This document shows positions 3,100 through 30,148 of a stretch of DNA of 64,000 bases, one piece after another. Made by a program: the position numbers and the translations under genes. The notes under the pieces are model-generated. The model was not told where the DNA came from and did no database searches. It saw nothing but the letters and a program-made list of their open reading frames with translations. Every line of letters starts with the position of its first letter. The stretch's first letter is position 1. Source of the DNA: Bradyrhizobium sp. 164 (GTDB lineage Bacteria > Pseudomonadota > Alphaproteobacteria > Rhizobiales > Xanthobacteraceae); the NCBI RefSeq assembly GCF_023073715.1, contig NZ_JADPKA010000077.1:1-64000 (forward strand), given 5' to 3'.

Positions 3100-3112
3100 A
3101 AGGAGTGATCCC

Positions 3113-3583: not shown

Positions 3584-3585
3584 TC

Positions 3586-3969
3586 ATGGATGTCATTATC
3601 TACCACAACCTGGATTGCGGAACCTCGCGCAACACGCTTGGCATGATCCGCAATGCGGGGATCGAGCCGCACGTGATCGAGTACCTGAAAACACCTCCGG
3701 CACGTGCGCTGCTCAAACAACTGATCGAGCGCATGGGTGTGCCCGTGCGGTCGGTACTTCGCGAGAAAGGCACGCCGTTCAATGATCTCGGTTTAAACAA
3801 GCCGAACCTTACTGATGATCAGTTGCTTGATGCGATGATGGCGCATCCGATCTTGATAAATCGTCCAATCGTGGTTACGCCGAAGGCGGTGCGCCTATGC
3901 AGGCCTTCGGAAGCCGTCCTTGACCTTCTCCCGGCCCAACGCGGCGGTCAACGATCTTCGGCAACCTGA
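3586..3969 (+). CDS. arsC: Arsenate reductase, glutaredoxin-dependent type
   Basis: The 127-residue protein should reduce arsenate to arsenite in the cytoplasm using glutathione/glutaredoxin. Catalytic Cys11 lies in HNLDCGTSRN, and the conserved segment ILINRPIVVTPKAVRLCRP near residues 89-107 supplies the arginines that bind the oxyanion. The start at 3586 is chosen over 3574 because it gives the usual N-terminus MDVIIYHN. It begins two bases after the arsI stop, and its TGA overlaps the ATG of the next gene by one base (TGATG), so translation is probably coupled. Confidence 0.92.
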   Translation: MDVIIYHNLDCGTSRNTLGMIRNAGIEPHVIEYLKTPPARALLKQLIERMGVPVRSVLREKGTPFNDLGLNKPNLTDDQLLDAMMAHPILINRPIVVTPKAVRLCRPSEAVLDLLPAQRGGQRSSAT

Positions 3970-4652: not shown

Positions 4653-4742
4653 GGCGCGAGGTCCGGTTTGGGTCAAAGGCTGCCTTGGCCCGCTCGGATC
4701 GCCTTGTTCGGGTCACCTTTAGTAAGCGGACCTCGCGGCGCG
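4651..4742. repeat. Palindromic (MITE-like) intergenic element
   Basis: About 90 bases bounded by inverted ends sharing GCGAGGTCCG / CGGACCTCGC. It contains the GGTCCGNTTTGGGTCAAAG motif that recurs at four or five other places in the first 15 kb. It sits directly behind aqpS, so a hairpin formed by it could also end ars transcription. Confidence 0.55.
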
Positions 4743-4804
4743 CTCAGCTGAGGTCGGCACGGGGCAACTTGCGGACTTCGTCATTCCAATTTCGGTGCCG
4801 ATAG

Positions 4805-5169
4805 CTATTCCACGGCCTTGCACAGTCCTTTTTCTTGCCAGCCGTGATCGTGTGCCCGATTGACCCAAGGTTCCCGCGTATCGTGCAGGACGAGCGCCAA
4901 TGCACGCCGTTCGACAGTGCCCGTGGCGGTCGGCTTGTGCGGGACGTTCGCGCGCACAATGACTGGCTGCCTCCCGGTCGGCCGATTTGCCTGCCCTCTG
5001 GCGTCTCCATGCATCCTTCGCCTTGTACGACGTGAATCAGCTCTGGTCCGGCGTGACGGTGAACCGTTGTGGTTGCACCGGGCAGCATGATCGCCTCAGG
5101 GCCAGTAGCGGCCATCATCGTTAACCGAAAGGATGCCCGAAGTTTACGCGGCGTGCCGCAGTCCCGCAC
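4805..5169 (-). pseudogene. Cupin-domain protein, frameshifted
   Basis: The first frame encodes the front half of a small cupin: PGATTTVHRHAGPELIHVVQGEGCMETPEG, with the metal-binding H-x-H and E of cupin motif 1. The second half (VIVRANVPHKPTATGTVERRALALVLHD, containing the motif 2 histidine in VPHKP) is in another frame ending at 4805. The shift lies around 4965-4980 and corresponds to one lost base. Uncorrected, the frame runs on to 4744 as a serine/arginine-rich tail. Function is unknown. The copy of GGGCCAGTAGCGGCC at about 5099-5113 lies inside the 5' part. Confidence 0.65.
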
Positions 5170-5233
5170 GACAATGCGCGAACGGCGCGCGAAATGAATT
5201 CGTCCGCCGCCGATGATCGTTAATTAGACGCGA

Positions 5234-6142
5234 CTATTTCAGTCCCTTTACAAACGCGAGGATTGTATCTGTAAGAGTCGTGTCTTCCGTATTCACTGAG
5301 TAAATTTCCGACATGTGGCTATGGCCTTTCAGCACCGCAAACGTTTGGCAGTGATTGTTAGCGCACATCGCAGCCTTCAGAGTTTCTGCTTGGTCGATGT
5401 AGTACGGAACATCAATTTCTCCGCGCACGACTAACAATGGCAGCTTTGATTGGGCCAAGCCATTTAGCGAGGATCGCTCCCGCCACAATTCGGTATCCGC
5501 GCCGAAATAAGATTTCTGCCCCGCCACTTCGATTTGGGGGCGAAGGTCATATGTGCCGGACACAAGTATTGCACCGACGACCACGGGCACGGCTGCGCGC
5601 GCTAGGTAACTGCCGACGTGCGATGCCCCGGCAGAGTGCCCCATCAGAAAAATGCGGTTTGGATCGCCCCCGTAGTCCCGGATTTTCTCCTTTGTCCATG
5701 CCACTGCCGACGCGACATCGTCCGCCGCCGCGGGCCAGGGATAGTCGGGCGCGAGCCGGTAGGTCATGTTGACTCCGACCATCCCATTCTTCGTCGCCCA
5801 CAACATGACATTGTCATAGTAGGGGCTTGAGCCGGCGCGCTTGTCGCCCCTCTCATATCCGCCGCCGTGAACGAAGATGAGAACGGGACGAGCCTCGGCG
5901 GTCGTTGCCCGAAACACGTCCAGCAGATTTCGCTCGTGTTGGCCGTACTTGATGTTTCGATCGACTGTTACGTTTTCATACGGCTCTTTCGCTTGCAGCG
6001 GCGCGTACAACTTTCCCGTTTCGGGAGCATTTATCACAGCGCCCATTGCCTTAACCGCCTCAGCTTTATCCGGAGGCATTGGACCCGCCGAGGCTGACTG
6101 AAGGCTGAGCAACGTGGTTGCAATGGCAATAGACCGACGCAT
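5234..6142 (-). CDS. Secreted alpha/beta-hydrolase (esterase/lipase-like)
   Basis: The start at 6142 gives a 302-residue precursor with a signal peptide (MRRSIAIATTLLSLQSASAG); the longer frame from 6247 adds a sequence that does not look like protein. The mature enzyme has the oxyanion-hole motif HGGG (92-95) after IFV, the nucleophile elbow GHSAG (Ser170) and a late histidine in GHSHMSE near residue 280. This is the layout of the hormone-sensitive-lipase / BD-FAE group of carboxylesterases. The likely location is the periplasm. The substrate is unknown. The next gene on the same strand ends 80 bases upstream. Confidence 0.8.
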   Translation of the reverse strand: MRRSIAIATTLLSLQSASAGPMPPDKAEAVKAMGAVINAPETGKLYAPLQAKEPYENVTVDRNIKYGQHERNLLDVFRATTAEARPVLIFVHGGGYERGDKRAGSSPYYDNVMLWATKNGMVGVNMTYRLAPDYPWPAAADDVASAVAWTKEKIRDYGGDPNRIFLMGHSAGASHVGSYLARAAVPVVVGAILVSGTYDLRPQIEVAGQKSYFGADTELWRERSSLNGLAQSKLPLLVVRGEIDVPYYIDQAETLKAAMCANNHCQTFAVLKGHSHMSEIYSVNTEDTTLTDTILAFVKGLK

Positions 6143-15566: not shown

Positions 15567-15635
15567 CCGGCTGCGCGAGGCGACATCCGGGACCTTGGCT
15601 CTCACTGTCCCGGGTATCGCCTTGCGCACCCGGCT
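15567..15635. terminator. Long imperfect hairpin behind the acyl-CoA ligase
   Basis: AGCCCGGCTGCGCGAGGCGA...CCGGGAC is followed, after a short loop, by its near reverse complement GTCCCGGGTATCGCC...GCACCCGGCT. The structure is about 70 bases long and sits right at the end of the ligase gene (stop at 15634). It may act as a terminator or be an intergenic repeat; no T-run is visible. Confidence 0.45.
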
Positions 15636-17178
15636 AGATCTTGCGTCCGGCCTGCTCCCAATAGGGATCGCGCAGGCGGCGCTTGAAGATTTTTCCGGAA
15701 TCTTCGCGCGGCAGCCCGCTGCGGATCTCGATGTGCTTCGGCACCTTGTAGTCGGCGAGCGAAGCCTTCAATCGCGCCCGGACCTCGGCGGCCTCGAGCG
15801 TGATGCCGGCCTGCGGCTCGACCACCGCCATCAGCGCCTCCCCGAACTCGGCATCGGGGATGCCGAACACGGCGCAATCATGCACGCCAGGCACTGCGTG
15901 CAGCACGGATTCGATCTCGGCCGGATAGATGTTGACGCCGCCTGAGATCACCATGTCGCGCTTACGGTCGCAGATGAAGACGTAACCGTCCTCGTCGATG
16001 TAGCCGACATCGCCGGAGGTGATGAAGCCATCGCGGTCGATCTCGGCGCGCTTCTCCGGCTTGTTGTGGTAGGTGAAATCGGCCATCCCGGCCATGCAGG
16101 AATAGATCTCGCCGACTTCGCCCACCGGAAGCACGCGGCCGTCATCCCCGATGAAGCGCAGTTCCGCGCCGGGCGAGATCCTGCCGACCGTGCCGGGCTT
16201 CTTCAGCGCATCCTCCGAGGTTGCGAAGGTGACCGCGCTGGACTCAGTCGAGCCGTAGAATTCGTAGATCACCGGTCCCCACCATTCGATCATGGCGCGC
16301 TTGACGTCGGCCGGACATGGCGCGGCGGCATGGATGACGTGGCGCAGCGAGGAGACGTCATATTTCCTGCGCACCTCTTCCGGCAGCTTCATCAGGCGGA
16401 TGAACATGGTCGGCACCATGAAGATGGTGTCGATCCTGTATCGTTCGATGAGTTCGAGAAATTCTTCGGCCTCGAAGCGCGGCATCAGCACCAGTGCGCC
16501 CCCGAGCTTGCCGGCGCGGATGCCGAAGGAGTTGGGCGCGGAATGATAGAGCGGGCCCGGCAACAGCGCGCGGGCGCCGGGCTTGAGGCCGTAGATCATC
16601 GCGCGCATGCGCTCGCCGGCAGCCTGCTGCTCCGGCGTCGGCGCATTGCGGCGGACGCCCTTGGGATGGCCTGTCGTCCCCGAGGTGTAGATCATGCTCA
16701 TCGGCTGCGGCACGACCGGGCCGTCATAGGGTTGTTGCTGGGCGAGCCAAGACTCAAAATCGATCGCGAACTCCGGAATCTTCAGATGATCCGGATCGAT
16801 CTTGTAATTGGACAGGATTTCCGGCGGCGTCGGCACGCTGAGCACGGTGACGCCGTTCGATATGGCACCGCGCAAGGCATGCAGCATGTCGGCATGTCCG
16901 ATCAGCACGGAGGTGCCGGTATCCTCCAGGATGTAATTGATCTCCTCCGGCTTGAAGTGCCAGTTGATGGGCACGCCATAGGCGCCGAGCCGCATCGCAG
17001 CATAGGCGGCCTCCAGGAAGGCGATGTCGTTGCGCATCAGCATGCAGACGCAATCACCTGGCTTGACGCCGAGCTCGGCAAGGCCACTCGCGATGCGGTC
17101 GGCACGGTCAGCGACCTCGGCGTGAGAGCGGCGACGGTTGCCGGAGACGATGCCCAGGAATTGAGACGTTTCGCTCAT
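15634..17178 (-). CDS. Acyl-CoA synthetase (AMP-binding), aromatic or fatty acid
   Basis: A 514-residue member of the acyl-adenylate superfamily that activates a carboxylic acid to its CoA thioester. Visible motifs are the P-loop-like YTSGTTGHPKG (about 163-173), YEFYGSTES (about 300), TSGDVGYIDEDGYVFICDRKRDMVISGGVNIYPAEIE, and the late catalytic lysine region SGKIFKRRLRDPYWEQ. The start at 17178 (MSETSQFLGIVSG) follows a purine-rich stretch. The very similar C-terminal RDPYWEQ / REPYWAG in this protein and the ligase at 19315 shows that they are paralogues. The upstream crotonase gene is on the same strand, 125 bases away, with a repeat in between. Confidence 0.9.
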   Translation of the reverse strand: MSETSQFLGIVSGNRRRSHAEVADRADRIASGLAELGVKPGDCVCMLMRNDIAFLEAAYAAMRLGAYGVPINWHFKPEEINYILEDTGTSVLIGHADMLHALRGAISNGVTVLSVPTPPEILSNYKIDPDHLKIPEFAIDFESWLAQQQPYDGPVVPQPMSMIYTSGTTGHPKGVRRNAPTPEQQAAGERMRAMIYGLKPGARALLPGPLYHSAPNSFGIRAGKLGGALVLMPRFEAEEFLELIERYRIDTIFMVPTMFIRLMKLPEEVRRKYDVSSLRHVIHAAAPCPADVKRAMIEWWGPVIYEFYGSTESSAVTFATSEDALKKPGTVGRISPGAELRFIGDDGRVLPVGEVGEIYSCMAGMADFTYHNKPEKRAEIDRDGFITSGDVGYIDEDGYVFICDRKRDMVISGGVNIYPAEIESVLHAVPGVHDCAVFGIPDAEFGEALMAVVEPQAGITLEAAEVRARLKASLADYKVPKHIEIRSGLPREDSGKIFKRRLRDPYWEQAGRKI

Positions 17179-17204
17179 TTGTTCTTCTTCTTGTTCAAAG
17201 TCGC

Positions 17205-17298
17205 CCTCATGGTGAGGAGGCGCAAAGCGCCGTCTCGAACCATGAGAGCCCGTGGCCCATCCCTCGAGACGCCGCTGCGCGGCTCGTCGGGATGAGGT
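17205..17298. repeat. Palindromic intergenic repeat, family B (copy 1)
   Basis: Contains CTCATGGTGAGGAGGCGC, CGTCTCGAACCATGAG and CCTCGAGACGCC...GGATGAGG. Two more copies lie at 28662-28800 and 31287-31385. It sits between two genes of the same strand and can form hairpins. Confidence 0.7.
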
Positions 17299-17303
17299 CT
17301 GTG

Positions 17304-18113
17304 TTAATCCGCAAACTTCGGCGCGCGCTTCTCCAGATTGGCCCGCACCGCCTCGGTCTGGTTCGCGCTGCCGATCAGCTTCTGCTGCTCGACGGATTCG
17401 GCGAGCAGCGCGGGGCCCGGATCGACCGAGAGATTGTTGAGCAGGCGTTTTGCCGCACGGATCGCGTCGGGACTCTTGCCAGCGATCTCGCGCGCGGCTT
17501 CCAGGGCCGCTGCGCGCGGATCGTCGCAGATGCGGGTGGCGAGGCCGTAAGTCATCGCCTCCTGCGCGGAGAAGATGCGGCCGGTGTAGGTGAGATCGCG
17601 CAGGATGTCGTCGCGCACCAGGCTTGCCAGGATCGGCGTGCCCGCCATGTCGGGCACGAGGCCCCATTTGATCTCCATGATCGACATCCGCGTATCGGGT
17701 GCGAGGAAGCGCATGTCGGCGCCGAGCGAGAGCTGGAAGCCGCCGCCGAAAGCAACGCCGTGGACGGCCGCAATCACAGGCACCGGAAGCTGACGCCAGC
17801 CCCACACCGCGGCCTGCGGAAAGTTCGCCTGCCCATGCGTGCGCTTGGTGAGGTCACGATTTTCGCCACCCGGAATTCCGTTGCCACCCTTCTCCTTCAT
17901 GGCGGCAAAACGCCCCATGTCGAGGCCGGCGCAGAAAGCGCGGCCCTCGCCGGACAGCACGACGACGCGCACGCCCTTTTCCTTCGAAAGCCGCTCGGTC
18001 GCAGCGACAAGGGCCTCGAACATGGCCTGATCCAGCGCATTCATCTTGTCGGCGCGCATCAGGCGCACGTCGGCGACGCCGTCCGAGATCAAAATCGAGA
18101 CGCGCTCTTCCAT
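17304..18113 (-). CDS. Crotonase / enoyl-CoA hydratase-isomerase family protein
   Basis: A 269-residue crotonase. The oxyanion-hole segments are FCAGLD (about 60-66) and VHGVAFGGGFQLSLGADMRFL (about 116-136), followed by the MEIKWGLVPDMAGT block where hydratases and isomerases carry catalytic acids. The N-terminus is VSILISDGVADVRLMRADKMNALD. It probably hydrates or isomerises an enoyl-CoA made in the same block. It is divergent from the dienoyl-CoA-reductase-like SDR gene, with a candidate operator in the 105-base gap. Confidence 0.88.
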   Translation of the reverse strand: MEERVSILISDGVADVRLMRADKMNALDQAMFEALVAATERLSKEKGVRVVVLSGEGRAFCAGLDMGRFAAMKEKGGNGIPGGENRDLTKRTHGQANFPQAAVWGWRQLPVPVIAAVHGVAFGGGFQLSLGADMRFLAPDTRMSIMEIKWGLVPDMAGTPILASLVRDDILRDLTYTGRIFSAQEAMTYGLATRICDDPRAAALEAAREIAGKSPDAIRAAKRLLNNLSVDPGPALLAESVEQQKLIGSANQTEAVRANLEKRAPKFAD

Positions 18114-19314: not shown

Positions 19315-20892
19315 ATGCCCACACAGCCTCTGGCCAATCTCGCCGACATGGTGCGCGAGCGCGCGAAAAGCCGCGGCAGCGCCATTGCCTACGAGTTCGA
19401 GGGCCGACTCACCAGCTTCGCCGAATTCGACGTCAACACCAACAAGGTCGCCCACGCGTTGATCGCAATGGGCGTGAAGAAAGGCGACCGCATCGCCTAT
19501 CTCGGCAAGAACAGCGACATCTATTTCGAGCTGTTGATGGGCGCCATGAAGGCCGGTGTGGTGATGGCGCCAGTGAATTGGCGGCTCGCGGGACCCGAGG
19601 TCGCCTTCATCGTCGAGGACTGCAAGGCGCCGGTGCTGTTCGTCGGGCCGGAGTTCATCGCGCTCGTTCGCCAAATCAAGGACCAGTTGCCGGGCCTGCG
19701 TACAATCATCACCACCGAAGGCGGCGCGCCGGAATGGCAGGATTTTGCGGCTTGGCGGGACACGCAGAGCGGTGACGATCCGAGGGTCCCGATCGACACC
19801 AAGGATATCGCGATCCAGCTCTATACGTCGGGTACGACCGGCAAGCCGAAGGGCGCAATGCTCTCGCACGCGAACTTCCTCAATCTGGTACAGACCGGTA
19901 ATGCCGAGGACAAGCCGGAGTGGAACCGGTGGTCGACCGATGATGTCTCGCTGGTGGCGATGCCGATCTTCCACATCGGCGGCTCGGGCTGGGGCGTGAT
20001 GGGGCTCTATCACGGCGCCCGCGGCGTGATCGCGCGCGAGTTCGATCCGACCAAGGTTCTGGACTTCTTCGAGCAGTCCGGGATCACGAAGCTGTTCATG
20101 GTGCCGGCGGCAATGCAGTTCGTGGTGCGGCAGCCGCGCGCGAAGACGGTCGATTTCTCGCGGCTGAAATACATGCTGTATGGCGCCTCGCCAATTCCGG
20201 CGGCGCTGCTGAAGGAGTGCATCGAGGTCTTCAAATGCGGTTTCGTGCAAATGTACGGCATGACCGAGACCACCGGCACCATCGTCGCGCTGCCGCCGGA
20301 AGACCACATCGAGGGACTGGAGCGGATGCGCTCGGCCGGCAAGGCACTGCCGGGCGTCGAGATCGCGATCCTGGACGTCGACGGCAAGCCGCTGCCGCCG
20401 CGCCAGGTCGGCGAGATCGCGACGCGCTCGGGCTCCAACATGGCCGGGTATTGGAACCTGCCCGAGGCGACCGCCGCTGCGCTTCGTTCCGACGGCTGGC
20501 TGCGCACCGGCGATGCCGGCTACATGGACGAGGACGGGTATCTCTATATCCACGATCGCATCAAGGACATGATCATCTCGGGCGGCGAGAACATCTACCC
20601 GGCCGAGGTCGAGAGTGCGTTGTGCGATCATCCTGATGTCGCGGAGGCCGCCGTGATCGGCGTGCCTGACGACAAATGGGGCGAGGCGGTGAAGGCCATG
20701 GTGGTCATGAAGCCTGGCAAGCAGGCCACAGCCACCGACATCATCAACTTCACCCGCGAGCGCATCGCTGGCTACAAGACGCCCAAGACCGTGGAGTTTC
20801 TGCCGGCGCTGCCGAGGAATCCGAGCGGCAAGATTTTGCGGCGCCAATTGCGTGAGCCGTATTGGGCCGGGAAAGAGCGACGGGTGAATTGA
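19315..20892 (+). CDS. Long-chain-fatty-acid-CoA ligase-like acyl-CoA synthetase
   Basis: A 525-residue AMP-forming acyl-CoA ligase. The signature YTSGTTGKPKGAML lies at about 170-183, MYGMTETTGT at about 312-321, LRTGDAGYMDEDGYLYIHDRIKDMIISGGENIYPAEVE at about 400-436, and the C-terminal lysine in NPSGKILRRQLREPYW. Substrate range cannot be read from the sequence. Among the ligases here it is one of two candidates for activating the starting acid of the 4-hydroxyacyl-CoA route proposed below (role of LvaE). Confidence 0.9.
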   Translation: MPTQPLANLADMVRERAKSRGSAIAYEFEGRLTSFAEFDVNTNKVAHALIAMGVKKGDRIAYLGKNSDIYFELLMGAMKAGVVMAPVNWRLAGPEVAFIVEDCKAPVLFVGPEFIALVRQIKDQLPGLRTIITTEGGAPEWQDFAAWRDTQSGDDPRVPIDTKDIAIQLYTSGTTGKPKGAMLSHANFLNLVQTGNAEDKPEWNRWSTDDVSLVAMPIFHIGGSGWGVMGLYHGARGVIAREFDPTKVLDFFEQSGITKLFMVPAAMQFVVRQPRAKTVDFSRLKYMLYGASPIPAALLKECIEVFKCGFVQMYGMTETTGTIVALPPEDHIEGLERMRSAGKALPGVEIAILDVDGKPLPPRQVGEIATRSGSNMAGYWNLPEATAAALRSDGWLRTGDAGYMDEDGYLYIHDRIKDMIISGGENIYPAEVESALCDHPDVAEAAVIGVPDDKWGEAVKAMVVMKPGKQATATDIINFTRERIAGYKTPKTVEFLPALPRNPSGKILRRQLREPYWAGKERRVN

Positions 20893-21005: not shown

Positions 21006-22280
21006 CTAATGCTTCCCCGGCCCCATATAGCCGAACAAGAACCCGGCCACCTTCCGCATCTGGATCTCCTCACTGCCCTCGGTGATGCGATAGCGCCGGT
21101 GGTGGCGGTAGATGTGCTCGAACGGCTTGTGGCGTGAGTAGCCCATGCCGCCATGGACCTGCATGGCGCGGTCGGCGGATTCGCAGCAGAGGCGGTTTGC
21201 CCAGTAATTGCACATGGAGACGCGATCAGAGAGCGTGCGCTCAATCTGCTCTTCGGTGAGCTGGTCCATCTCCCAGGCAGTCTTGCGGATCAGAAGACGC
21301 AGCATCTCGGCCTGCGTGGCGAGCTCGACCAGCGGGAACTGGATCGCCTGATTCTCGGCGAGCGCCTTGCCGAACGGCTTGCGCTCGCGGGCATATTTCA
21401 CGCTCTCGTTGATGCAGTAAACCGCGGCGCCGAGCGAGCTCGCGGCCTGGCGGATGCGGTTCTGGTGCACGAAGCACTGCGCCAGCGACAGGCCGCGGCC
21501 CACCTCGCCGAACAGCGCATCCTCGGGCACGAACACGTCCGTGAAGCTGACGCGGGGATGGTCGGTCGGCATGTTGAAGGTCCACATGTACTCCTCGACC
21601 TTGACGCCGTCGCTCTTCGCCGGCACCAGGAAACAGGTGATGCCGCGCGCATCGCCGTGATTGCCGCTCGTGCGCGCAAACAGCGCGCAATGCGTGGCAA
21701 CATGCATGCCTGTCGTCCACATCTTGTCGCCGTTGATGATCCAGCCCTTGACGTTGTCGCGGGTCGCCGGCACCGCGCGCGTCTCCATATGGGTGGCGTC
21801 CGAGCCGTGATGCGGCTCGGTTAGGCCAAAGGTGATGCGGTACTTGCCTTTGATCGAGCCGTCGATCATCGCCTTCTGATCGTCGCGGCCGTAGCGGTCG
21901 AGCATGGTGACAACGGGGAAATTGCCGACGATGGAATGCTCGTTCTGGAGATCGTTGTGCAGGCCGAGTCCCTTGGCGGCAAAATGCTCGCGGATCACGG
22001 CCATCCAGAGATTGGAGCCGTCCTTGCCGCCAAATTGCTTCGGCACCGGAAAACGCAGATGACCCGCGGCGTCCGCCAGGTCCTTGGCCTTGCGCAGCAG
22101 CGCCTCCCATTCGTGGCGCGGCAGGCCGCCATTCTCGAAATCGGTGCGCGCCCATTCGCGGCGGTGATCGAAGAAGCGGATGTTGTCATCGGCCTCCTCC
22201 AGCGGCTTGATCTCGCGCTCGATGAAACGGTCGAGCTCTCCGAGATAGGCGACGAGATCGTCAGGCAATGAGAAATCCAA
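21006..22280 (-). CDS. Acyl-CoA dehydrogenase
   Basis: A flavoprotein of 424 residues if it starts at the TTG at 22280 (LDFSLPDDLVAYLGELDRFI), which GGGAGA precedes at suitable distance. The frame runs further up to 22343, but without family-like sequence. Acyl-CoA dehydrogenase blocks are visible: FGLTEPHHGSDATHMETRA (FAD and substrate contacts), GDKMWTTGM, MQVHGGMGYSRHKPFEHIYR and YRITEGSEEIQMRKVAG. It introduces a 2,3-double bond into an acyl-CoA and passes electrons to an electron-transfer flavoprotein (not in the window). It is divergent from an enoyl-CoA hydratase gene. Confidence 0.88.
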   Translation of the reverse strand: MDFSLPDDLVAYLGELDRFIEREIKPLEEADDNIRFFDHRREWARTDFENGGLPRHEWEALLRKAKDLADAAGHLRFPVPKQFGGKDGSNLWMAVIREHFAAKGLGLHNDLQNEHSIVGNFPVVTMLDRYGRDDQKAMIDGSIKGKYRITFGLTEPHHGSDATHMETRAVPATRDNVKGWIINGDKMWTTGMHVATHCALFARTSGNHGDARGITCFLVPAKSDGVKVEEYMWTFNMPTDHPRVSFTDVFVPEDALFGEVGRGLSLAQCFVHQNRIRQAASSLGAAVYCINESVKYARERKPFGKALAENQAIQFPLVELATQAEMLRLLIRKTAWEMDQLTEEQIERTLSDRVSMCNYWANRLCCESADRAMQVHGGMGYSRHKPFEHIYRHHRRYRITEGSEEIQMRKVAGFLFGYMGPGKH

Positions 22281-22490
22281 GGGTCTCTCCCTCAATGATT
22301 TTTCGTTTTGCGTTAAGGCGCTAAGCGCATTCTTGCTTCGCACGATTAAGCGGAGAAGAGCGCATCCAAGTCAAGCAAGCCGAGACGTGTGAGGCACGCA
22401 AGGCGCGCTTGCGCATTTCGGTGGTGCTCAAGCGCACCCGCGCGCTAGTATGACGACAATATTCCTTCACGAGAAAATGCGGGAGCGATC

Positions 22491-23270
22491 ATGGAGCTGA
22501 AATTTTCCAAGGTGGAACGCAAGGGCCCGATCACGATCGTCACACTGTCGCGGCCCGAGGTCTATAACGCGCTGCACACGGACGCGCATTTCGAGCTCAA
22601 CAAGGTCTTCGACGATTTCTCGGCCGATCCCGAGCAATGGATCGCGATCGTCACCGGCAGCGGTGACAAGGCGTTCTGCGCCGGCAACGATCTGAAGTGG
22701 CAGGCCGCGGGCGGCAAACGCGGCTGGGACAAGGGTGGGTTTGCGGGCCTGACCTCGCGGTTCGACTGCGACAAGCCGATCATCGCCGCCGTGAACGGCG
22801 TCGCGATGGGCGGCGGCTTCGAGATCGCGCTGGCCTGCGACCTCATCATTGCCTCGGAGAATGCCACCTTCGCGCTGCCCGAGCCGCGCGTTGGCCTGGC
22901 CGCGCTCGCCGGTGGCCTGCACCGCCTGCCACGGCAGATCGGCCTCAAACGCGCCATGGGCATGATCCTTACCGCGCGGCATGTCAGTGCCAAGGAAGGC
23001 CTCGAGCTCGGCTTCGTCAACGAGGTGGTGCCGCGAGGCGAGGCGCTCGACGCCGCGCTGCGCTGGGCGGAGATGATCACCAAGAACTCGCCGATGTCCA
23101 TACGGGCCTCGAAGCAGGCAATCCAGAAAGGGCTTGGCGTCTCGCTGGAACAGGCGATCGAGCAGCAGCGGGAGTATCCGGCGGTGAAGGCGATGGTGGC
23201 GTCGCAGGATTACATCGAGGGCCCGAAGGCGTTTGCGGAGAAGCGACCACCGAAATGGGTGGGGAAGTAA
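22491..23270 (+). CDS. Enoyl-CoA hydratase
   Basis: A 259-residue crotonase with oxyanion-hole segments FCAGNDLKW (about 63-71) and VNGVAMGGGFEIALACDLI, catalytic-acid region ALPEPRVGLAALAGGLHRLPRQIG and the closing KRPPKWVGK typical of hydratases. It would hydrate 2-enoyl-CoA to 3-hydroxyacyl-CoA. It is divergent from the acyl-CoA dehydrogenase, which is a natural partner reaction; the 210-base gap holds both promoters. Confidence 0.88.
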   Translation: MELKFSKVERKGPITIVTLSRPEVYNALHTDAHFELNKVFDDFSADPEQWIAIVTGSGDKAFCAGNDLKWQAAGGKRGWDKGGFAGLTSRFDCDKPIIAAVNGVAMGGGFEIALACDLIIASENATFALPEPRVGLAALAGGLHRLPRQIGLKRAMGMILTARHVSAKEGLELGFVNEVVPRGEALDAALRWAEMITKNSPMSIRASKQAIQKGLGVSLEQAIEQQREYPAVKAMVASQDYIEGPKAFAEKRPPKWVGK

Positions 23271-23381: not shown

Positions 23382-23759
23382 CTACCCGCCTCGCGACAGC
23401 TCTCGCTTGTATGACGCGTAATTCGGCTGATCGACTGCGAGCTTGTCCATCGTGGTCTGCCAGAGGTGCTCGGCAAGGCCCGGCGTTGCGAGATCGATCT
23501 CGCCTTTGGCAATGCGCATCGCGAGCGTGCGGTTGAGCTCGATCAATGAACCGTCCATGCCCAGCAGCGCGCGCAGCCGCTCCACCTCCGCCGCATCGCT
23601 GCCCTCCTCCCGCGTCAGCTGCCGCGTCACGAGATCGAGGATGTTGATGGCGACGCGCAGCTTGAAAGCCTGGTGGCCGGAGATCAGCGGCGTGATCTCG
23701 TTGCGCAAGAAATCGGCGACTGACTTTGTCAGCTCGATCGGCGTGGGTTCGTCCTGCAT
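23382..23759 (-). CDS. DUF6285 protein, likely partner of the APH kinase (LvaB-like)
   Basis: A 125-residue, mostly helical acidic protein (PTPIELTKSVADFLRNEITPLISGHQAFKLRVAINILDLVTRQL...). I assign it to DUF6285 from memory of the family, which is found next to APH-type acyl-CoA kinases. It starts 3 bases after the kinase stop, so the two are surely co-translated. In Pseudomonas putida the small protein LvaB is needed for the activity of the kinase LvaA; this gene has the corresponding size and position. No catalytic motif is visible. That it is an orthologue of LvaB is my inference. Confidence 0.75.
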   Translation of the reverse strand: MQDEPTPIELTKSVADFLRNEITPLISGHQAFKLRVAINILDLVTRQLTREEGSDAAEVERLRALLGMDGSLIELNRTLAMRIAKGEIDLATPGLAEHLWQTTMDKLAVDQPNYASYKRELSRGG

Positions 23760-23762
23760 GCA

Positions 23763-24749
23763 TCAGCTCCCGCGCGGCGCCAGCAGCCGCAACAGATCGA
23801 TCTCGGTCTCGGAGGCGCGGCGTCCGATCATGGCGCGCTCCATGGAATGGTCAGGCCCCTCGCGAAACCGCTGCATCATGCCGCCGCACATGATGCCCCA
23901 GCGCAGCGTGCCCATTACTTCCCAGAATTTCACGCGCGGCGGATCGACCTTGCGGCCCGCGGCCTCATAGCCCGCAAACAGCTCCTCGCGCGAGCCGAAG
24001 CCGCCAACCGGCTTGTCGATCTCGCCGAAACGCCACGAGTTGACGCAGACCCAACCGAGATCCTCCATGGGATCGCCGAGATGGGCGAGCTCCCAGTCCA
24101 GCACGGCACGGATACCGTCGGCGCCGATGATAAGATTGCCGTTGCGGAAATCGCCATGTACCAACGTCTCCTCCGCCGAGGGACCGGGATCGTGGTCGCG
24201 CAGCCAGCGCAGCGCCAGCTCGAACACGGGCTTGGGCCAGTTCAGGCTGCGATAGTCGCGCTCGAACTCATCGACCTCCTTCGCCGCGGTCATGCGGCGC
24301 AGCTCCGGCAGCTTGTGCAGCGGCAGCTTGTGCAAACCGGCGAGCACGTCGCCGATCTGCCGCGCCAGCAGCGGCCGTGCGGCTGCGAACTCCTCATCGC
24401 GAAGGATCTTGCGGGCGATAGTCTCGCCCTCGATCCGCTGCATGATGAAGCCCGTGCCGAGATCGTCCTCCGGCGTGAGCACATGCATCACGCGCGGCGA
24501 CGGCACGCCAGCCTCATAGGCGAGCTGCATCAGCTGCGCTTCAGCGGCGAGGCCTGCCGCGCGCGTTGGCGCGGCGCCATAGCCCTTCGGCGAGCGGCGC
24601 AGGATTGCGCCTATCAGCCCATCGGGATGCACGATATCGAAGCGCCACGTTTCCTGACTGGCGCCGCCAGAGAGCTTGGCCGCGCCGGCGACGCCGGTCG
24701 CACCGGGACACCAGCGCGCGACGCTGCGGGAAAGCTCCGCCTCGATCAT
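23763..24749 (-). CDS. APH-family acyl-CoA kinase (ACAD10/11 kinase domain, LvaA-like)
   Basis: A 328-residue phosphotransferase with the aminoglycoside-phosphotransferase fold. The catalytic loop HGDFRNGNLIIG (Brenner motif, about 193-204) and the metal-binding VLDWELAHLGDP (about 210-221) are intact, and the N-terminal lobe includes LSGGASQETWRFD. Proteins of this type form the N-terminal half of mammalian ACAD10/ACAD11 and equal bacterial LvaA, which phosphorylates the 4-hydroxyl of 4-hydroxyacyl-CoAs. Its ATG overlaps the stop of the upstream crotonase gene (ATGA), and DUF6285 follows after 3 bases. Antibiotic resistance is not its likely job. Confidence 0.85.
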   Translation of the reverse strand: MIEAELSRSVARWCPGATGVAGAAKLSGGASQETWRFDIVHPDGLIGAILRRSPKGYGAAPTRAAGLAAEAQLMQLAYEAGVPSPRVMHVLTPEDDLGTGFIMQRIEGETIARKILRDEEFAAARPLLARQIGDVLAGLHKLPLHKLPELRRMTAAKEVDEFERDYRSLNWPKPVFELALRWLRDHDPGPSAEETLVHGDFRNGNLIIGADGIRAVLDWELAHLGDPMEDLGWVCVNSWRFGEIDKPVGGFGSREELFAGYEAAGRKVDPPRVKFWEVMGTLRWGIMCGGMMQRFREGPDHSMERAMIGRRASETEIDLLRLLAPRGS

Positions 24750-25534
24750 TTGCCTTTGAACTGCGCGGGGCGCTTCTCCAGGAACGCGCCGACGCCTTCG
24801 CGGAAGTCATCGGTGTCGCCCGCTCGAAGCTGGCACTGGAATTCGAGGTTAAGCTGATCCTCGAAAGAATTTTCCGGGCTGTCCCAGTAGAGTTTGCGGA
24901 TCAGCGACAGCGCCACCGTCGGGCCGCTGGCGAGCTCGCGTGCGAGCTTCATCGCCTCCTCCATCAGCACGCCGTCATCATAGACGCGGTTGACGAGGCC
25001 CCATTCCAATGCCTTCTCGGCCGGCAGCCGCTCGCCCATCAGCGACAATTCGATCGAGCGCGCCCGACCGATCAGGCGCGGCAAGAGCCAGGTGGAGCCG
25101 CAATCCGGCACAAGACCGATGCGGCGGAAGGCTTGCAGGAAATAGGACGAGCGCGCGCACAGGATCATGTCACCGAGCAGCGCGAAGCTCATGCCGGCGC
25201 CGGCGGCGGGACCGTTGACCGCGGTCACGATCGGGCAATGCAGGTTGCGGATGCGGCGCAGGAACGGATGAAAGCCGGTCTCCAGCGTCAGGCCGGCCTT
25301 GGTCTTCTTCGGCTGGTTGTTGCGGCCCTGGAGATTTGCCCCGGTGCAGAACGCCCGCCCAGCGCCGGTCAAAACGACGCAGCGCACCTCATCCTTCTTC
25401 TCCTCGATCGCATCCAGAGCTTCGGCAAGGCCGCCCAGCATGTCCAAGGAGACTGCGTTCATCACCTCCTGATGGTCGAGCTTGAGGATCGCGACCGAAC
25501 CATCGAGATCGAGCGTGACGTGTTTGAACTGCAT
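24746..25534 (-). CDS. Enoyl-CoA hydratase/isomerase (crotonase), first gene of the kinase operon
   Basis: A 262-residue crotonase, with FCTGANLQGR (about 63-72), VNGPAAGAGMSFALLGDMILCAR (oxyanion hole, G-A-G-M) and RRIGLVPDCGSTWLLPRLIG where PaaG/PaaB-type enzymes carry an aspartate. The closing segment is EGVGAFLEKRPAQFKGK. It could hydrate, or shift the double bond of, the enoyl-CoA left after phosphate elimination in the route proposed for the neighbouring kinase. The stop overlaps the kinase start by four bases. Transcription is divergent from the SDR at 25700. Confidence 0.87.
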   Translation of the reverse strand: MQFKHVTLDLDGSVAILKLDHQEVMNAVSLDMLGGLAEALDAIEEKKDEVRCVVLTGAGRAFCTGANLQGRNNQPKKTKAGLTLETGFHPFLRRIRNLHCPIVTAVNGPAAGAGMSFALLGDMILCARSSYFLQAFRRIGLVPDCGSTWLLPRLIGRARSIELSLMGERLPAEKALEWGLVNRVYDDGVLMEEAMKLARELASGPTVALSLIRKLYWDSPENSFEDQLNLEFQCQLRAGDTDDFREGVGAFLEKRPAQFKGK

Positions 25535-25699
25535 GGTTTCCTCGTCAGCTTGCCGCCTGCGTCAGTTTCGCAGACCGGAATTTGTTTTTCCGGGCGCATA
25601 TTTGATTTTTGGCGCGGTCTTGTCCATGGTGATCAGAGCATAGCAAGCAATCTTGCGCGCAGCGGCTGATCCGCCGCAGGCCAAAACAGGAAACGCGCC

Positions 25700-26479
25700 A
25701 TGAACCTTTTCGACCTTTCCGGCCGCGTCGCCGTGATCACCGGCGGCAATGGCGGCATCGGGCTCGGCATTGCGCAGGCGCTCGCCGGCCAGGGCTGCAA
25801 CGTCTCGATCTGGGGCCGCAATGCTGACAAGAACAAGGCTGCTGCCGCGAGCCTGGCCGGCCTTGCCGGCAAAGTTGACACCCGCGTCTGCGACGTCACC
25901 GATCCGGCCTCGGTCGATGCTGCGATGAAGGCGACGCTCGACGCGTTCGGTCGGGTTGACGGCTGCTTTGCCAACGCAGGCATCGGTGGCGGCGGGCGGC
26001 GCTCGTTCATCGAGCGCACCGAACAGGAATGGCGCACGATGTTTTCGACCAATCTCGACGGCGTATTCCACGCGTTCCAGGCCGCGGCAAAGCACATGAC
26101 CGAGCGTGCCAATGCCGGCGACCCCTTCGGCCGGCTGGTTGCGACCTCGAGCCTCGCCTCGATCTTCGGCACCGCGCGCAACGAGCATTATGCGGCGACC
26201 AAGGCCGCCATCAACGCGCTGGTGCGTGCGCTCGGCGTCGAGCTCGCGCGTTACGGGGTCACCGCGAACGCGATCCTGCCGGGCTGGATCAAGAGCGACA
26301 TGACCGCGGGGCTCATGGCCAACGACAAGTTCGTCGCCAACGTGATGCCGCGCATTCCGGTGCGGCGCTTCGGTGAGGCATCCGATTTCGGCGGCATTGC
26401 AGTGTATCTGATGAGCAAGGCGTCGTCGTATCACACCGCCGATACATTCGTGATCGACGGCGGCTATACGGCGTTTTGA
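25700..26479 (+). CDS. SDR oxidoreductase (candidate 4-oxoacyl/3-hydroxyacyl-CoA reductase)
   Basis: A classical 259-residue short-chain dehydrogenase: nucleotide motif ITGGNGGIGLGIA (about 13-25), ANAGIGGGG at about 92, and the Ser...YAATK catalytic set (HYAATKAAINAL, about 169-180). Its C-terminus DTFVIDGGYTAF is standard. Orientation is opposite to the crotonase-kinase-DUF6285 operon, with 165 bases between the starts. By analogy to the lva pathway it could correspond to LvaD, which reduces the 4-oxo group; this is inference from context. Confidence 0.85.
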   Translation: MNLFDLSGRVAVITGGNGGIGLGIAQALAGQGCNVSIWGRNADKNKAAAASLAGLAGKVDTRVCDVTDPASVDAAMKATLDAFGRVDGCFANAGIGGGGRRSFIERTEQEWRTMFSTNLDGVFHAFQAAAKHMTERANAGDPFGRLVATSSLASIFGTARNEHYAATKAAINALVRALGVELARYGVTANAILPGWIKSDMTAGLMANDKFVANVMPRIPVRRFGEASDFGGIAVYLMSKASSYHTADTFVIDGGYTAF

Positions 26480-26488
26480 TCTCGTTAA

Positions 26489-26562
26489 CCCGGATGGAGC
26501 GCAGCGTAATCCGGGACAGCCAAAAGCAAACAGACCCGGATTTCGCTGCGCTCCATCCGGGC
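26489..26562. repeat. Palindromic intergenic repeat, family D
   Basis: CCCGGATGGAGCGCAGCGTAATCCGGG and, inverted, CCCGGATTTCGCTGCGCTCCATCCGGG: two 27-base arms with almost perfect complementarity, separated by about 20 bases. It lies 25 bases upstream of the VOC gene. Confidence 0.75.
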
Positions 26563-26586
26563 TCCAAACTCGGAGGGAATGGGCAA

Positions 26587-26967
26587 ATGTTCTCGCACGT
26601 GATGATCGGCACCAACGATCTCGACAAGGCCAAGGCGTTCTACGACAAGCTGCTCGGCACGCTCGAGGTGCGGCCGGCCAGGGTCGACGGCCATCGCATC
26701 TTCTACATCACCAAGACCGGTGTGTTCTCGGTGTCGAAGCCGATCAACGGCGAACCGGCGACCTGCGCGAATGGCGGCACGATCGGCTTTGCCTGCAATT
26801 CGCCGGAGCAGGTCGAGGCTTGGCACGCGGCCGGAGTCGCGGCCGGTGCGACCTCGATTGAGGATCCGCCCGGTGTCCGCCAGGGCCCAGGCGGCAAGCT
26901 CTATCTCGCTTATTTGCGCGACCTCGACGGCAACAAGATCTGCGCGATGCATCGGATGCCGAACTAG
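26587..26967 (+). CDS. VOC-family (glyoxalase/bleomycin-resistance fold) protein
   Basis: The start at 26587 (MFSHVMIGTNDLDKAKAFYDKLLG) is preceded by GGAGGG and gives 126 residues, the usual one-domain-pair length. Histidine 4 and the late glutamate-equivalent region (RDLDGNKICAMHRM) occupy metal-ligand positions of the fold, though the usual terminal glutamate appears replaced. The family includes lactoylglutathione lyases, epimerases and dioxygenases, and the reaction here is unknown. The segment upstream of 26587 in the same frame is repeat sequence, not protein. Confidence 0.82.
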   Translation: MFSHVMIGTNDLDKAKAFYDKLLGTLEVRPARVDGHRIFYITKTGVFSVSKPINGEPATCANGGTIGFACNSPEQVEAWHAAGVAAGATSIEDPPGVRQGPGGKLYLAYLRDLDGNKICAMHRMPN

Positions 26968-26976
26968 GTCTGGGCC

Positions 26977-27068
26977 ATGCCCCGGCTTGCCGTCTCCGCT
27001 GAAGCTTCGCCGGCCGAGAGCGCTTGTAGGCCCGGCGTAGCCTATTAGCGGAGCCGGGACCGGGGCAT
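26977..27068. repeat. Large palindrome downstream of the VOC gene
   Basis: ATGCCCCGGCTTGCCGTCTCCGCTGA and TAGCGGAGCCGGGACCGGGGCAT are imperfect inverted arms around a GC-rich centre that itself pairs (GCCGG/CCCGGC). It begins ten bases after the stop codon, so it could also serve as a terminator. Confidence 0.6.
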
Positions 27069-27152
27069 CCGGTACGCCGCGGCTTTTCGGTTCAATCACC
27101 GTCGTCTCTGGAATACTGGATCGCCCGATTGAATCGGGCGATGACAGCGGAG
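27066..27152. repeat. Intergenic repeat, family E (copy 1)
   Basis: GTACGCCGCGGCTT, then CGTCTCTGGAATACTGGATCGCCCG and a short hairpin ending CGGGCGATGACA. A second copy lies at 43272-43377. The rest of the gap to 27319 holds the promoter of the following acyl-CoA dehydrogenase. Confidence 0.7.
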
Positions 27153-27319
27153 GTTGTCGCGAGCGCAGCGAAACCTCATCACCATTCAAACAACATTTCA
27201 AACGCCTTGGCGATATTCCATCGCGTGGCATGGCTCTGCGTGAAAAATGCGCGCTCGCACTTTGGCGGCGCTGCGACTATTCTTGCGCTCAGCGGAATCC
27301 TAGCGCTCCGGGAGGAACA

Positions 27320-28597
27320 ATGACAAAGCACACCTACATTCCCCGCACCACCAACTACACCCTCAATCCCGGCGACGAGCTCAACGACTTGCGCATGTCG
27401 GACCAGGTCCGCCCGCTCTACGACCACGTCAAGAAGTTCATCCGCGACACCGTCGAGCCGATGTCGATCGAGTTTGCCAAGGCCGGCGAGAACAAGGAGG
27501 ATCGCTGGAGCTTTACGCCGAAGCAGCTCGAGGTGCTCGAGAAGGCCAAGAACAAGGCCAAGCAGGAAGGCCTCTGGAACTTCTTCCTGCCCGATGACGA
27601 GACCGGCCAGGGCCTGAAGAATCTCGACTACGCCTATATCGCCTCCGAGCTCGGCAAGAGCCCGCTGGCATCCGAAACCATGAATTGCTCGGCGCCCGAC
27701 ACCGGCAACATGGAAGTTCTGGAGCGCGTCGGCACCAAGGAGCAGAAGGAGAAATGGCTGAAGCCGCTGCTCAACGGCGAGATCCGCTCGGCTTACGTCA
27801 TGACCGAGCCGAACGTCGCCTCCTCCGACGCAAAGAACATCTCGACCACGGCCAAACTCGTCGGCGACGAATGGGTCATCAACGGCGAGAAGTACTACAT
27901 CTCAGGCTTAGGGGACCCCCGCTGCAAGATCCTCATCGTGATGGTGAAGACCAATCCGGATGCGGCACCGAGCAAGCAGCAGTCGCAGATCCTCGTGCCG
28001 CGCGATACGCCCGGCGTCGAGGTGCTCGGGCCGATGTACGTGTTCGGCCAGGACCACGCTCCGCGCGGCCACATGCATATGCGCTTCAATAATGTCCGGG
28101 TGCCCAAGGAGAACATCCTGCTCGGCGAGGGCCGCGGCTTCGAGATCTCGCAGCTCCGCCTTGGCCCCGGCCGCATCCATCACTGCATGCGCACCATCGG
28201 CAAGGCCGAGAAGGCGCTCGACCTCATGGTGCAGCGCGGCCTCACCCGCGAAGCCTTCGGCAAGAAGATCGCCCATCTCGGCGGCAACATGCAAATCATC
28301 GCGCAGGCCCGCTGCGAGATCGAGGCGATGCGGCTGATGGTGCTGAAGGCCGCGAAGGCGATGGACGTGCTCGGCAACAAGGAGGCCCGCGTCTGGGTCT
28401 CCATGGTCAAGGCCATGGTGCCGGAGCGCGCCTGCAAGATCATCGACCAGGCTATCCAGATGCACGGCGCCACCGGCATCTCGCACTGGACGCCGCTGGC
28501 CGAGATGTATCAGGACGTGCGTCACCTCCGCTTTGCGGACGGTCCGGACGAGGTGCACTGGATGGTGGTGGGACGCCACGAGCTGAGCATGGCGTGA
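27320..28597 (+). CDS. ACAD10/11-type acyl-CoA dehydrogenase (LvaC-like)
   Basis: A 425-residue flavoprotein. The start at 27320 follows GGAGG. Diagnostic blocks are TEPNVASSDAKNIST (about 175-190), GEKYYISGLGDPRCKILIVMVKT (about 207-230), VFGQDHAPRGHMHMRFNNVRVPKENILLGEGRGFEISQLRLGPGRIHHCMR and IQMHGATGISHWTPLAEMYQDVRHLRFADGPDEVH. The G-D-P-R-C-K and LGPGRIHHCMR segments are those I associate with ACAD10/ACAD11 and LvaC, where the enzyme acts on 4-phosphoacyl-CoA and yields an enoyl-CoA. The APH kinase and DUF6285 genes stand 2.6 kb upstream. Confidence 0.88.
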   Translation: MTKHTYIPRTTNYTLNPGDELNDLRMSDQVRPLYDHVKKFIRDTVEPMSIEFAKAGENKEDRWSFTPKQLEVLEKAKNKAKQEGLWNFFLPDDETGQGLKNLDYAYIASELGKSPLASETMNCSAPDTGNMEVLERVGTKEQKEKWLKPLLNGEIRSAYVMTEPNVASSDAKNISTTAKLVGDEWVINGEKYYISGLGDPRCKILIVMVKTNPDAAPSKQQSQILVPRDTPGVEVLGPMYVFGQDHAPRGHMHMRFNNVRVPKENILLGEGRGFEISQLRLGPGRIHHCMRTIGKAEKALDLMVQRGLTREAFGKKIAHLGGNMQIIAQARCEIEAMRLMVLKAAKAMDVLGNKEARVWVSMVKAMVPERACKIIDQAIQMHGATGISHWTPLAEMYQDVRHLRFADGPDEVHWMVVGRHELSMA

Positions 28598-28952: not shown

Positions 28953-29828
28953 CTACATCGCCGGCGAGAGCTTGTCCTGCGTCTTGGTCTCGAAATCGCT
29001 CGCGTCGTGGCGCTCGTGGAGCTGGCTGGCGGGATCGCCGGAGACACGATTGACCATGCGGCCGCGCTTCACGGCCGGGCGCTTGGCGATCTGATCGGTC
29101 CAGCGCTGCACGTTCTTGTAGTCCTGCACCGAGAGGAATTCGCCGGCGCCATAGACCAAGCCCTTGGCGAGGGCGCCGTACCAGGGCCACACCGCCATAT
29201 CGGCGATGGTGTACTCGCTGCCCGCGAGATATTCGTTGTCGGCGAGCCGCCGGTCGAGCACATCGAGCTGGCGCTTGGTCTCCATCGCGAAGCGATCGAT
29301 GGCGTATTCGATCTTGGTCGGCGCGTAGGCGTAGAAATGGCCGAAGCCGCCGCCGAGATAGGGCGCGCTGCCCATCTGCCAGAACAGCCAGGACATCGCC
29401 TCAGTGCGGGTCTTGACGTCCTTCGGCAGGAAGGCGCCGAACTTCTCGGCGAGGTAGAACAGGATCGAGCCGGACTCGAACACCCGGATCGGCTCGGGCC
29501 CGGAGCGGTCCATCAGCGCCGGGATCTTGGAGTTCGGATTGATGTCGACAAAACCGCTGCCGAACTGGTCACCGTTGCCGATCCTGATCAACCAGGCGTC
29601 GTATTCGGCGCCCTTATGGCCGAGCGCCAGCAACTCTTCCAGCATCACCGTCACCTTCACCCCGTTCGGCGTCGCCAACGAATAGAGCTGGAGCGGATGG
29701 CGGCCGACCGGTAGCTCCTTGTCGTGGGTGGGGCCGGCGATCGGGCGGTTGATGTTGGCGAACTGCCCGCCATTTTCCTTGTTCCAGGTCCAGACTTTGG
29801 GCGGCACGTAGGCAGGGGTATCGGTCAT
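28953..29828 (-). CDS. yghU: Glutathione-dependent disulfide-bond oxidoreductase, YghU-like
   Basis: A 291-residue glutathione-transferase-fold protein. The N-terminal extension with PPKVWTWNKENGGQFANINRPIAGPTHDKELPVG before the thioredoxin-like domain is the hallmark of the YghU group (nu-class GST). Further features are NGVKVTVMLEELLALG, VDINPNSKIPALMD, VFESGSILFYLAEKFG and WLFWQMGSAPYLGGGFGHF. Such enzymes reduce disulfides or peroxides with two glutathione molecules. The start at 29828 (MTDTPAYVPPK) is chosen over 29861. Its role next to acyl-CoA genes is unclear. Confidence 0.9.
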   Translation of the reverse strand: MTDTPAYVPPKVWTWNKENGGQFANINRPIAGPTHDKELPVGRHPLQLYSLATPNGVKVTVMLEELLALGHKGAEYDAWLIRIGNGDQFGSGFVDINPNSKIPALMDRSGPEPIRVFESGSILFYLAEKFGAFLPKDVKTRTEAMSWLFWQMGSAPYLGGGFGHFYAYAPTKIEYAIDRFAMETKRQLDVLDRRLADNEYLAGSEYTIADMAVWPWYGALAKGLVYGAGEFLSVQDYKNVQRWTDQIAKRPAVKRGRMVNRVSGDPASQLHERHDASDFETKTQDKLSPAM

Positions 29829-30148
29829 GCGAGAGGCTCCGGCGGAAAGATGCGCCTGCATTAATTAGCCCGCAAATGGCAGATGACAAGGGCTGCTCGA
29901 TCTGCGCCCGGCGCGGGCCTCAGGCTGGCGTCATGCGACCTCGCCTGGCTGCCGCCTGCGCCGGCGCTTCGGACTCCATCCCGAAGCCCTCCATGCACCA
30001 GGAGTTAGCCTGCGAGTGGAGCATCGCGCGGCGTGTCCACGCAAGATGCGCCGTCGAATCCGGCATGGCATCGCCAGCGACGATCCGCTAGCGTCGCTTT
30101 GCTTCGCCGCGACAGCAACGAGAACGCGAAGACCGCCGGGAGAGAGCC
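29829..30148. other. Divergent promoter region, no gene
   Basis: Between yghU (minus) and the nitronate monooxygenase (plus). The frames here are short and lack ribosome sites. GGGAGAGAGCC precedes the ATG at 30149. Nothing else is recognised. Confidence 0.45.

Follow-up and report, generated by a model that had tools for sequence, protein, structure and literature searches.

The 64,000-nucleotide window analysed here (positions 1 to 64,000 of contig NZ_JADPKA010000077.1, Bradyrhizobium sp. 164) encodes an APH-fold kinase (P0002) packed with a small DUF6285 protein (P0001) and a crotonase (P0003), together with two acyl-CoA dehydrogenases (ACADs), one of the ACAD11 type (P0006) and a second, uncharacterised one (P0011, hereafter ACADx). 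This arrangement raises the question of which of the two dehydrogenases receives the product of the kinase. The original prediction had described a phosphorylative 4-hydroxyacyl-CoA pathway like that of the Pseudomonas levulinate (lva) operon, with kinase, DUF6285 protein and P0006 as its core, and omitted both ACADx and the crotonase P0008 that lies beside it. The comparisons described below favour, on balance, a reading in which an LvaAB-like hydroxyacyl-CoA kinase feeds ACADx, a third and uncharacterised ACAD lineage, rather than P0006. The protein families named in the original prediction were right, and its assignment of the partner was probably wrong.

The distribution of these genes was surveyed in 398 Pseudomonadota genomes, with ACADx counted as present at E<=1e-100 to P0011 and the kinase at E<=1e-20 to P0002. 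Relatives of P0002 were detected in 46 genomes; ten of these, set apart by neighbourhood and then by tree, hold kinases of the LvaA subclade, and six with weak matches only (29-34% identity) were excluded. The 30 genomes that remain are exactly those with P0011 relatives (Fisher p 8e-46; 2e-25 with genera as units, 17/212), in tests that ignore relatedness. Both states, presence and absence, occur within families f1, f2, f12, f13 and f43, and kinase and ACADx agree throughout. Gene neighbourhoods were compared in regions of up to 20 kb around 40 DUF6285 places outside the window (38 genomes) and in the window itself, with open reading frames (ORFs) classified against references; some regions end at contig ends, and that of genome G301 was added separately. 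Around P0002-type kinases, P0011 relatives (64-98% identity) were present in the regions of all ten genus genomes, window included, and of 10 of the 20 others, and the last ten genomes carry them elsewhere, unlinked to the kinase; kinase and ACADx therefore lie within one 20-kb region in 20/30 genomes and apart in 10/30.

A different partner accompanies the LvaA subclade, as eight of its ten genomes have in their regions an LvaC-type ACAD with the residues equivalent to R626, H634, R637 and D753 of ACAD11, whose roles are described in the accessible part of PMC12440821. No ACAD11/LvaC-type gene with these diagnostic residues was found in the surveyed Pseudomonadota regions around P0002-type kinases outside the genus, and a 25% match to LvaC at locus L084 has none of the four. 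The combination of kinase, DUF6285 protein and P0006 put forward originally is thus probably wrong as a conserved unit, and the co-inherited partner in Pseudomonadota is P0011. Other candidate partners were checked in 53 genomes, comprising 24 of the 30 kinase-positive genomes and 29 hand-picked others. Crotonase P0003 was rejected as a strict partner, with orthologs at >=67% identity only in G000, G035, G217, G287, G289 and G191, and so was a thiolase of the Sulfitobacter cluster, which is enriched only (20/24 kinase-positive genomes and 6/29 others at >=62% identity). The kinases of Cupriavidus and Variovorax accompany other ACADs: at L059, L061 and L084 (Cupriavidus, Variovorax and genome G379) a third kinase group is accompanied by a ligase, by genes that match DUF6285 or are annotated as such, and by ACADs without the LvaC or ACADx residues; the same kinase may there serve a further pathway.

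P0002 and LvaA share 34% identity. In a tree of 58 kinase rows, built by a quick method, with long branches meeting at the root and the order within the superclade unsure, the DUF6285-linked kinases and LvaA form a superclade of 48 rows (support 98 in the Shimodaira-Hasegawa-like approximate likelihood ratio test, SH-aLRT) opposite ten rows that comprise ACAD10/11-type kinases and relatives of solved structure. Within the superclade, LvaA groups with its operon relatives in a 12-row subclade (support 99), to which a Thermus kinase and that of genome G139 are nearest. The original prediction expected P0002 within an ACAD10/11-LvaA clade; the kinship with LvaA stands at the level of the superclade, but P0002 falls outside the ACAD10/11-type clade, as does LvaA itself, and outside the LvaA subclade. 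To our knowledge, LvaA is the only superclade member with a published assay. Descent and the presence of the small subunit support P0002 and P0001 as a putative LvaAB-like two-subunit kinase. LvaA acts on 4-hydroxyvaleryl-CoA, and lvaB is required for growth on levulinate, its product binding LvaA, according to the available text of PMC6692424. The two kinase lineages are not separated without exception: in a betaproteobacterial metagenome-assembled genome (L228, 9326-10829), a DUF6285 match follows an ACAD10-type kinase.

The relation of DUF6285 to LvaB was examined with an annotated P. aeruginosa plasmid protein as the reference, rather than that of P. putida. On this plasmid (NZ_MF344569.1), the lva genes run in the order phosphotransferase, lvaB (4-hydroxypentanoyl-CoA kinase subunit LvaB), ACAD, short-chain dehydrogenase/reductase (SDR), acyl-CoA synthetase and PrpR-type regulator. 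Its LvaB matches Pfam DUF6285 (PF19802) with 85.3 bits (E 4.8e-24), against a cut-off of 28.1 that P0001 exceeds by a wider distance. Since the annotated LvaB is a DUF6285 member, P0001 can be called the LvaB counterpart, as proposed, at the level of the family. The relation is visible only by profile: pairwise BLAST of P0001 against LvaB gave no significant match (Expect 2.7), and none of the NCBIfam models matched P0001, LvaB or the Thermus DUF6285 protein. P0001 is the sole DUF6285 match in this genome, and the family is present in 39/398 Pseudomonadota genomes, that of Caulobacter vibrioides among them. Kinase and DUF6285 matches share one ORF of ~450-500 codons in ten surveyed genomes (L090, L092, L094-L096 and L098-L102), and such fusions occur also at at least 12 named loci (12 aligned). 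The model of one fusion (mean predicted local distance difference test score, pLDDT, 86.2; predicted template modelling score, pTM, 0.86) shows the DUF6285 part as five helices, which are hardly covered by the listed structural matches; this should not be taken to indicate a new fold.

Membership of ACADx was defined by E<=1e-100 to P0011, which defines the family, together with the helix RIRQAAS. Every one of the 31 ACADx rows from the regions (the window among them) has this helix, as do 79 of the best 80 named loci among at least 590 relatives; RITEG-S/A-E is carried by 75 of these 80 loci. In two plasmid relatives the helix reads RIRQAAG and RIRQAAA, respectively. A careful tree of 27 ACADs places ACADx in one clade (100/100) and LvaC plus ACAD11 in another (98/97), with seven other ACADs split from both at 98/97; a wider tree, covering 71 rows and built quickly, joins ACADx to LvaC plus ACAD11 at 94. 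The ACADx model (pLDDT 84.7) is nearest to ACAD11 (2wbi; Z 37.7, root mean square deviation 3.4, 386 aligned residues) and ties, within 1 Z, with caffeyl-CoA reductase 6fah (Z 36.9), so that structure alone is not decisive. No close solved sequence relative was found (best E 1e-45). An extra arginine, invariant in ACADx, lies at ACAD11 position 633, which would face the active site, judging from its helix spacing to 626, 630 and 637.

In the route proposed, P0002 with P0001 would transfer a phosphate to an acyl-chain hydroxyl of a hydroxyacyl-CoA, the helical DUF6285 protein being a bound subunit, and the phosphorylated acyl-CoA would then go to ACADx and not to P0006. Residue E422 of ACADx would take the alpha proton and hydride would pass to flavin adenine dinucleotide (FAD), with phosphate as a vinylogous leaving group. 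The resulting enoyl- or dienoyl-CoA would be hydrated or isomerised by the neighbouring crotonases and enter beta-oxidation. The ACAD10 proposal, as given in the accessible part of PMC11342911, comprises oxidation, phosphate elimination to 2,4-dienoyl-CoA and back-reduction; ACADx, with a glutamate and other basic residues, could follow this scheme or stop at the oxidised product. Co-inheritance and clade position are the grounds for the step assigned to ACADx, from which we infer the elimination of phosphate and a mode that may be either redox-neutral, like that of ACAD10/11, or oxidative. The identity of the substrate is likewise conditional, and a 4-hydroxy or 4-oxo compound is a guess. A bolder form of this reading is tentative and, to our minds, rather doubtful: ACADx might be a third phosphoacyl-CoA-processing lineage, with a catalytic glutamate and a different basic helix, that handles the products of DUF6285-dependent kinases in bacteria and haloarchaea in a net oxidative manner, yielding dienoyl-CoA with electrons passed to the electron-transferring flavoprotein (ETF), and not the redox-neutral enoyl-CoA of ACAD10/11.

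The strongest competing explanation, which we consider unlikely, is that of the original prediction, in which P0002 and P0001 phosphorylate 4-hydroxyacyl-CoA and P0006 eliminates the phosphate as LvaAB and LvaC do, ACADx being an ordinary downstream step of beta-oxidation. The identification of P0006 as an ACAD11-type enzyme was borne out by its match to ACAD11 (E 5e-117; next group 3e-39) and by all four diagnostic equivalents, and grouping with ordinary ACADs was not seen. The gene lies 2.6 kb from the kinase and has it as a neighbour in 10/10 genus regions. Orthologs of P0006 at >=70% identity occur in 20/398 genomes, 18 of them kinase-positive (Fisher 2e-21), and an ACAD11-type gene of some kind is present in each of the 30 kinase-positive genomes (Fisher 2e-16). 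This enrichment favours the pairing of kinase and P0006, yet it is weaker than that of ACADx, because 12 of the 30 kinase-positive genomes have no ortholog at >=70%, against ACADx in all 30. ACAD11-type genes are moreover present in 129/398 genomes, 99 of them without a P0002-type kinase; the regions outside the genus speak against the pairing, as described above; and no annotated kinase or DUF6285 gene lies within 8 kb of a P0006 ortholog carried by a Sulfitobacter plasmid. The Bradyrhizobium genome has two further ACAD11-type genes. One of them, with a product that shares 56% identity with P0006, adjoins the gene of an ACAD10-type kinase on contig C46 (~2768-5431; L103, genome G000), and the two make up a further copy of the known ACAD10/11-type pair. 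P0006 more likely works with an ACAD10-type kinase encoded at another place in this genome.

Those two enrichments of ACAD11-type genes count against the assignment of ACADx as the partner, and so do several further observations. A crotonase gene on the opposite strand separates ACADx from the kinase in the window. At the positions of R626, H634, R637 and D753, ACADx has F, Q, S and E; because this set is absent, its action on a phosphorylated substrate is something we infer. The wider genome collection, in which kinase type was judged by profile score, holds at least 590 P0011 relatives, and among the best 80 named loci, mostly bacterial, a superclade kinase lies within 6 kb in 59, DUF6285 in 55 and both in 54, which supports the pairing; the other 21, which count against it, have no superclade kinase in the flank, seven of these having an ACAD10-type kinase and six a flank of <3 kb on one side. 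On a Nonomuraea plasmid (L154, 6658-8915), a superclade kinase 50% identical to P0002 adjoins an ACAD with all four residues, with a DUF6285 gene ~4 kb away; this is the main exception to the ACADx pairing and also favours the P0006 model. A Thermus plasmid kinase outside the LvaA subclade adjoins an LvaC-type ACAD, as does a kinase of Paracoccus aestuarii (35% identity to P0002; outside the tree sample). The pairing of kinase and ACADx is not exclusive, with the Nonomuraea and Thermus cases lying outside Pseudomonadota. We read these cases as a single kinase family able to work with an enzyme of the LvaC/ACAD11 type or with ACADx, and, since the same superclade is paired with both, an equivalent step is suggested for ACADx.

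A Thermus plasmid carries a histidine phosphatase gene that overlaps the DUF6285 end (L057, 8345-8998), and the lva cluster of P. citronellolis has a histidine phosphatase gene as well, according to the available text of PMC6692424. A Paracoccus plasmid (L148, 6739-9229) encodes, side by side, an LvaC-type ACAD, a kinase and a short 'hypothetical' protein matching DUF6285 (E 1e-7), with homogentisate genes near.

Relatives of P0011 at E<=1e-70 were found on 12 plasmid records, namely five from Sulfitobacter, one from Nocardia, five from haloarchaea and one from Rhodobacteraceae. A kinase adjoins ACADx in ten of these (four Sulfitobacter records and that of Nocardia being judged by coordinates), and no kinase was found within 6 kb of ACADx in Halomarina PSR21 and the Rhodobacteraceae record. 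Four of the five haloarchaeal plasmids have ACADx, a protein of 157-159 residues and a phosphotransferase together, in keeping with the ACADx reading. The profile comparison of this small protein with DUF6285 gave probability 9.9 and E 0.003, too little to place it in that family and a further point against the ACADx reading, and the superclade profile fits the haloarchaeal kinases just slightly better than the profile of the ACAD10 type does. At L150, L151 and L157 the haloarchaeal triads adjoin hydantoinase/oxoprolinase genes, with a gene of the acetoacetate decarboxylase family also present at L150 and L151; these neighbours give a hint of ketone-derived substrates.

It is improbable that the kinase acts on a hydroxylated compound other than 4-hydroxyacyl-CoA, such as a tertiary alcohol, with ACADx as a plain dehydrogenase of the same route: the fold modelled for the kinase-DUF6285 fusion resembles that of 25-hydroxysteroid kinase (Z 23.1, 22.7), the catalytic glutamate of ACADx is the standard ACAD residue and the other genes vary between kinase clusters, but the model matches 3dxp better (Z 26.1), the sequence match of P0002 to the steroid kinase is weak (E 0.001), ACADx groups with LvaC/ACAD11, and LvaA, of the same superclade, uses 4-hydroxyvaleryl-CoA (PMC6692424, available text).

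The features of the window are collected in Table 1. All ORFs named in the original prediction have intact frames, including the SDR, the PRK06187 ligase and P0006. The described packing is present in the sequence, with a 4-base overlap between P0003 and P0002 and a 3-base gap between P0002 and the DUF6285 gene, as are the motifs HGDFRNGN and VLDWE in P0002 and GDPRCK and LGPGRIHHCMR in P0006. The Pfam scores for DUF6285, APH and ECH_1 are far above chance. The second ligase proposed, the PRK12406 synthetase, exists as an ORF, but its start is set ~210 codons too early. For P0006, the mechanical ORF opens at 27230, and a better ribosome-binding-like stretch makes 27320 the more likely start; the true start of ACADx is probably near residue 22. 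The nearest solved relative of P0003 is 1,2-epoxyphenylacetyl-CoA isomerase 4fzw. Among the genus regions, P0008 is present in 10/10 (window included) and in genome G289, a match to the SDR is listed in 8/10 and in G289, and one to the GST-like gene in 9/10.

Table 1. Genes of the Bradyrhizobium sp. 164 window (contig NZ_JADPKA010000077.1) considered in the text.
Feature	Coordinates	Strand	Evidence and remarks
P0001, DUF6285/LvaB-family small subunit, 125 aa	23382..23759	-	Pfam PF19802, 110.8 bits
P0002, APH-fold kinase, LvaA-like, 328 aa	23763..24749	-	Pfam APH, 127.9 bits; tree
P0003, crotonase	24746..25534	-	ECH_1, 188.5 bits; PRK05981 equivalog, 485.9 bits (cut-off 351)
P0011 (ACADx), second acyl-CoA dehydrogenase	21006..22343	-	Catalytic-Glu position kept; RIRQAAS helix
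P0008, second crotonase, between ACADx and DUF6285 genes, opposite strand	22491..23270	+	ECH_1, 213 bits
P0004, SDR	25700..26479	+	Pfam SDR; 30% identity to LvaD
P0006, ACAD11-type dehydrogenase	27320..28597	+	R626/H634/R637/D753 equivalents present
Acyl-CoA ligase, PRK06187 subfamily, AMP-binding, possible activator	19315..20892	+	33% identity to LvaE
Acyl-CoA synthetase, PRK12406, AMP-binding	15634..17805	-	Domain starts near residue 214 of the ORF
GST-like glutathione-dependent disulfide-bond oxidoreductase	28953-29861		PRK11752 model; adjoins P0006

Comparison with known systems places the locus near several of them. Like the Pseudomonas lva operon, it combines an APH kinase and an adjacent DUF6285 subunit with ACAD, SDR and ligase genes nearby; unlike it, the kinase is outside the LvaA subclade and the co-inherited ACAD is ACADx, not LvaC, and the identities of the SDR and ligase to LvaD and LvaE are as expected of general family members. 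With mammalian ACAD10 and ACAD11, and with bacterial pairs of ACAD10-type kinase and ACAD11, it shares P0006, with its four residues; in contrast, P0002 is outside that kinase clade, such a kinase is found on contig C46, and the only DUF6285 match is in the window. The 25-hydroxysteroid kinase of Sterolibacterium (PMC8449060; PDB 9fsg/9ft5) has the APH fold, is a structural match of the fusion model and phosphorylates a hydroxyl before elimination, but its substrate is a steroid alcohol (the tertiary C25 hydroxyl) and not an acyl-CoA; its C-O lyase partner is given as unknown in the accessible part of that paper. Ordinary ACADs such as CarC (6fah) and medium-chain acyl-CoA dehydrogenase (MCAD) share with ACADx the fold and the glutamate at the catalytic position, whereas the RIRQAAS helix with its extra arginine, the YRHHRRYRITEG loop and the co-inheritance with a kinase set ACADx apart. 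The term 'DUF6285' was not found in the literature collection searched, nor, by title or abstract start in that one collection, was a paper on the pair of kinase and ACADx, a protein without a searchable name.

For DUF6285, a domain of unknown function, these results provide a testable role as a subunit of hydroxyacyl-CoA kinases. They also tell apart two kinase lineages, one LvaA-like with DUF6285 and one of the ACAD10/11 type, in this genome without it, and they draw attention to a so far uncharacterised dehydrogenase, inherited together with LvaA-like kinases in Pseudomonadota and adjacent to kinases in actinobacteria and haloarchaea. Should ACADx act on phosphorylated acyl-CoA, it would represent a third enzyme solution for the route of phosphorylation followed by elimination, probably with new substrates, and the flavin chemistry proposed, which is unsettled for ACAD10/11, would become comparable between enzymes with a glutamate and enzymes with an aspartate.

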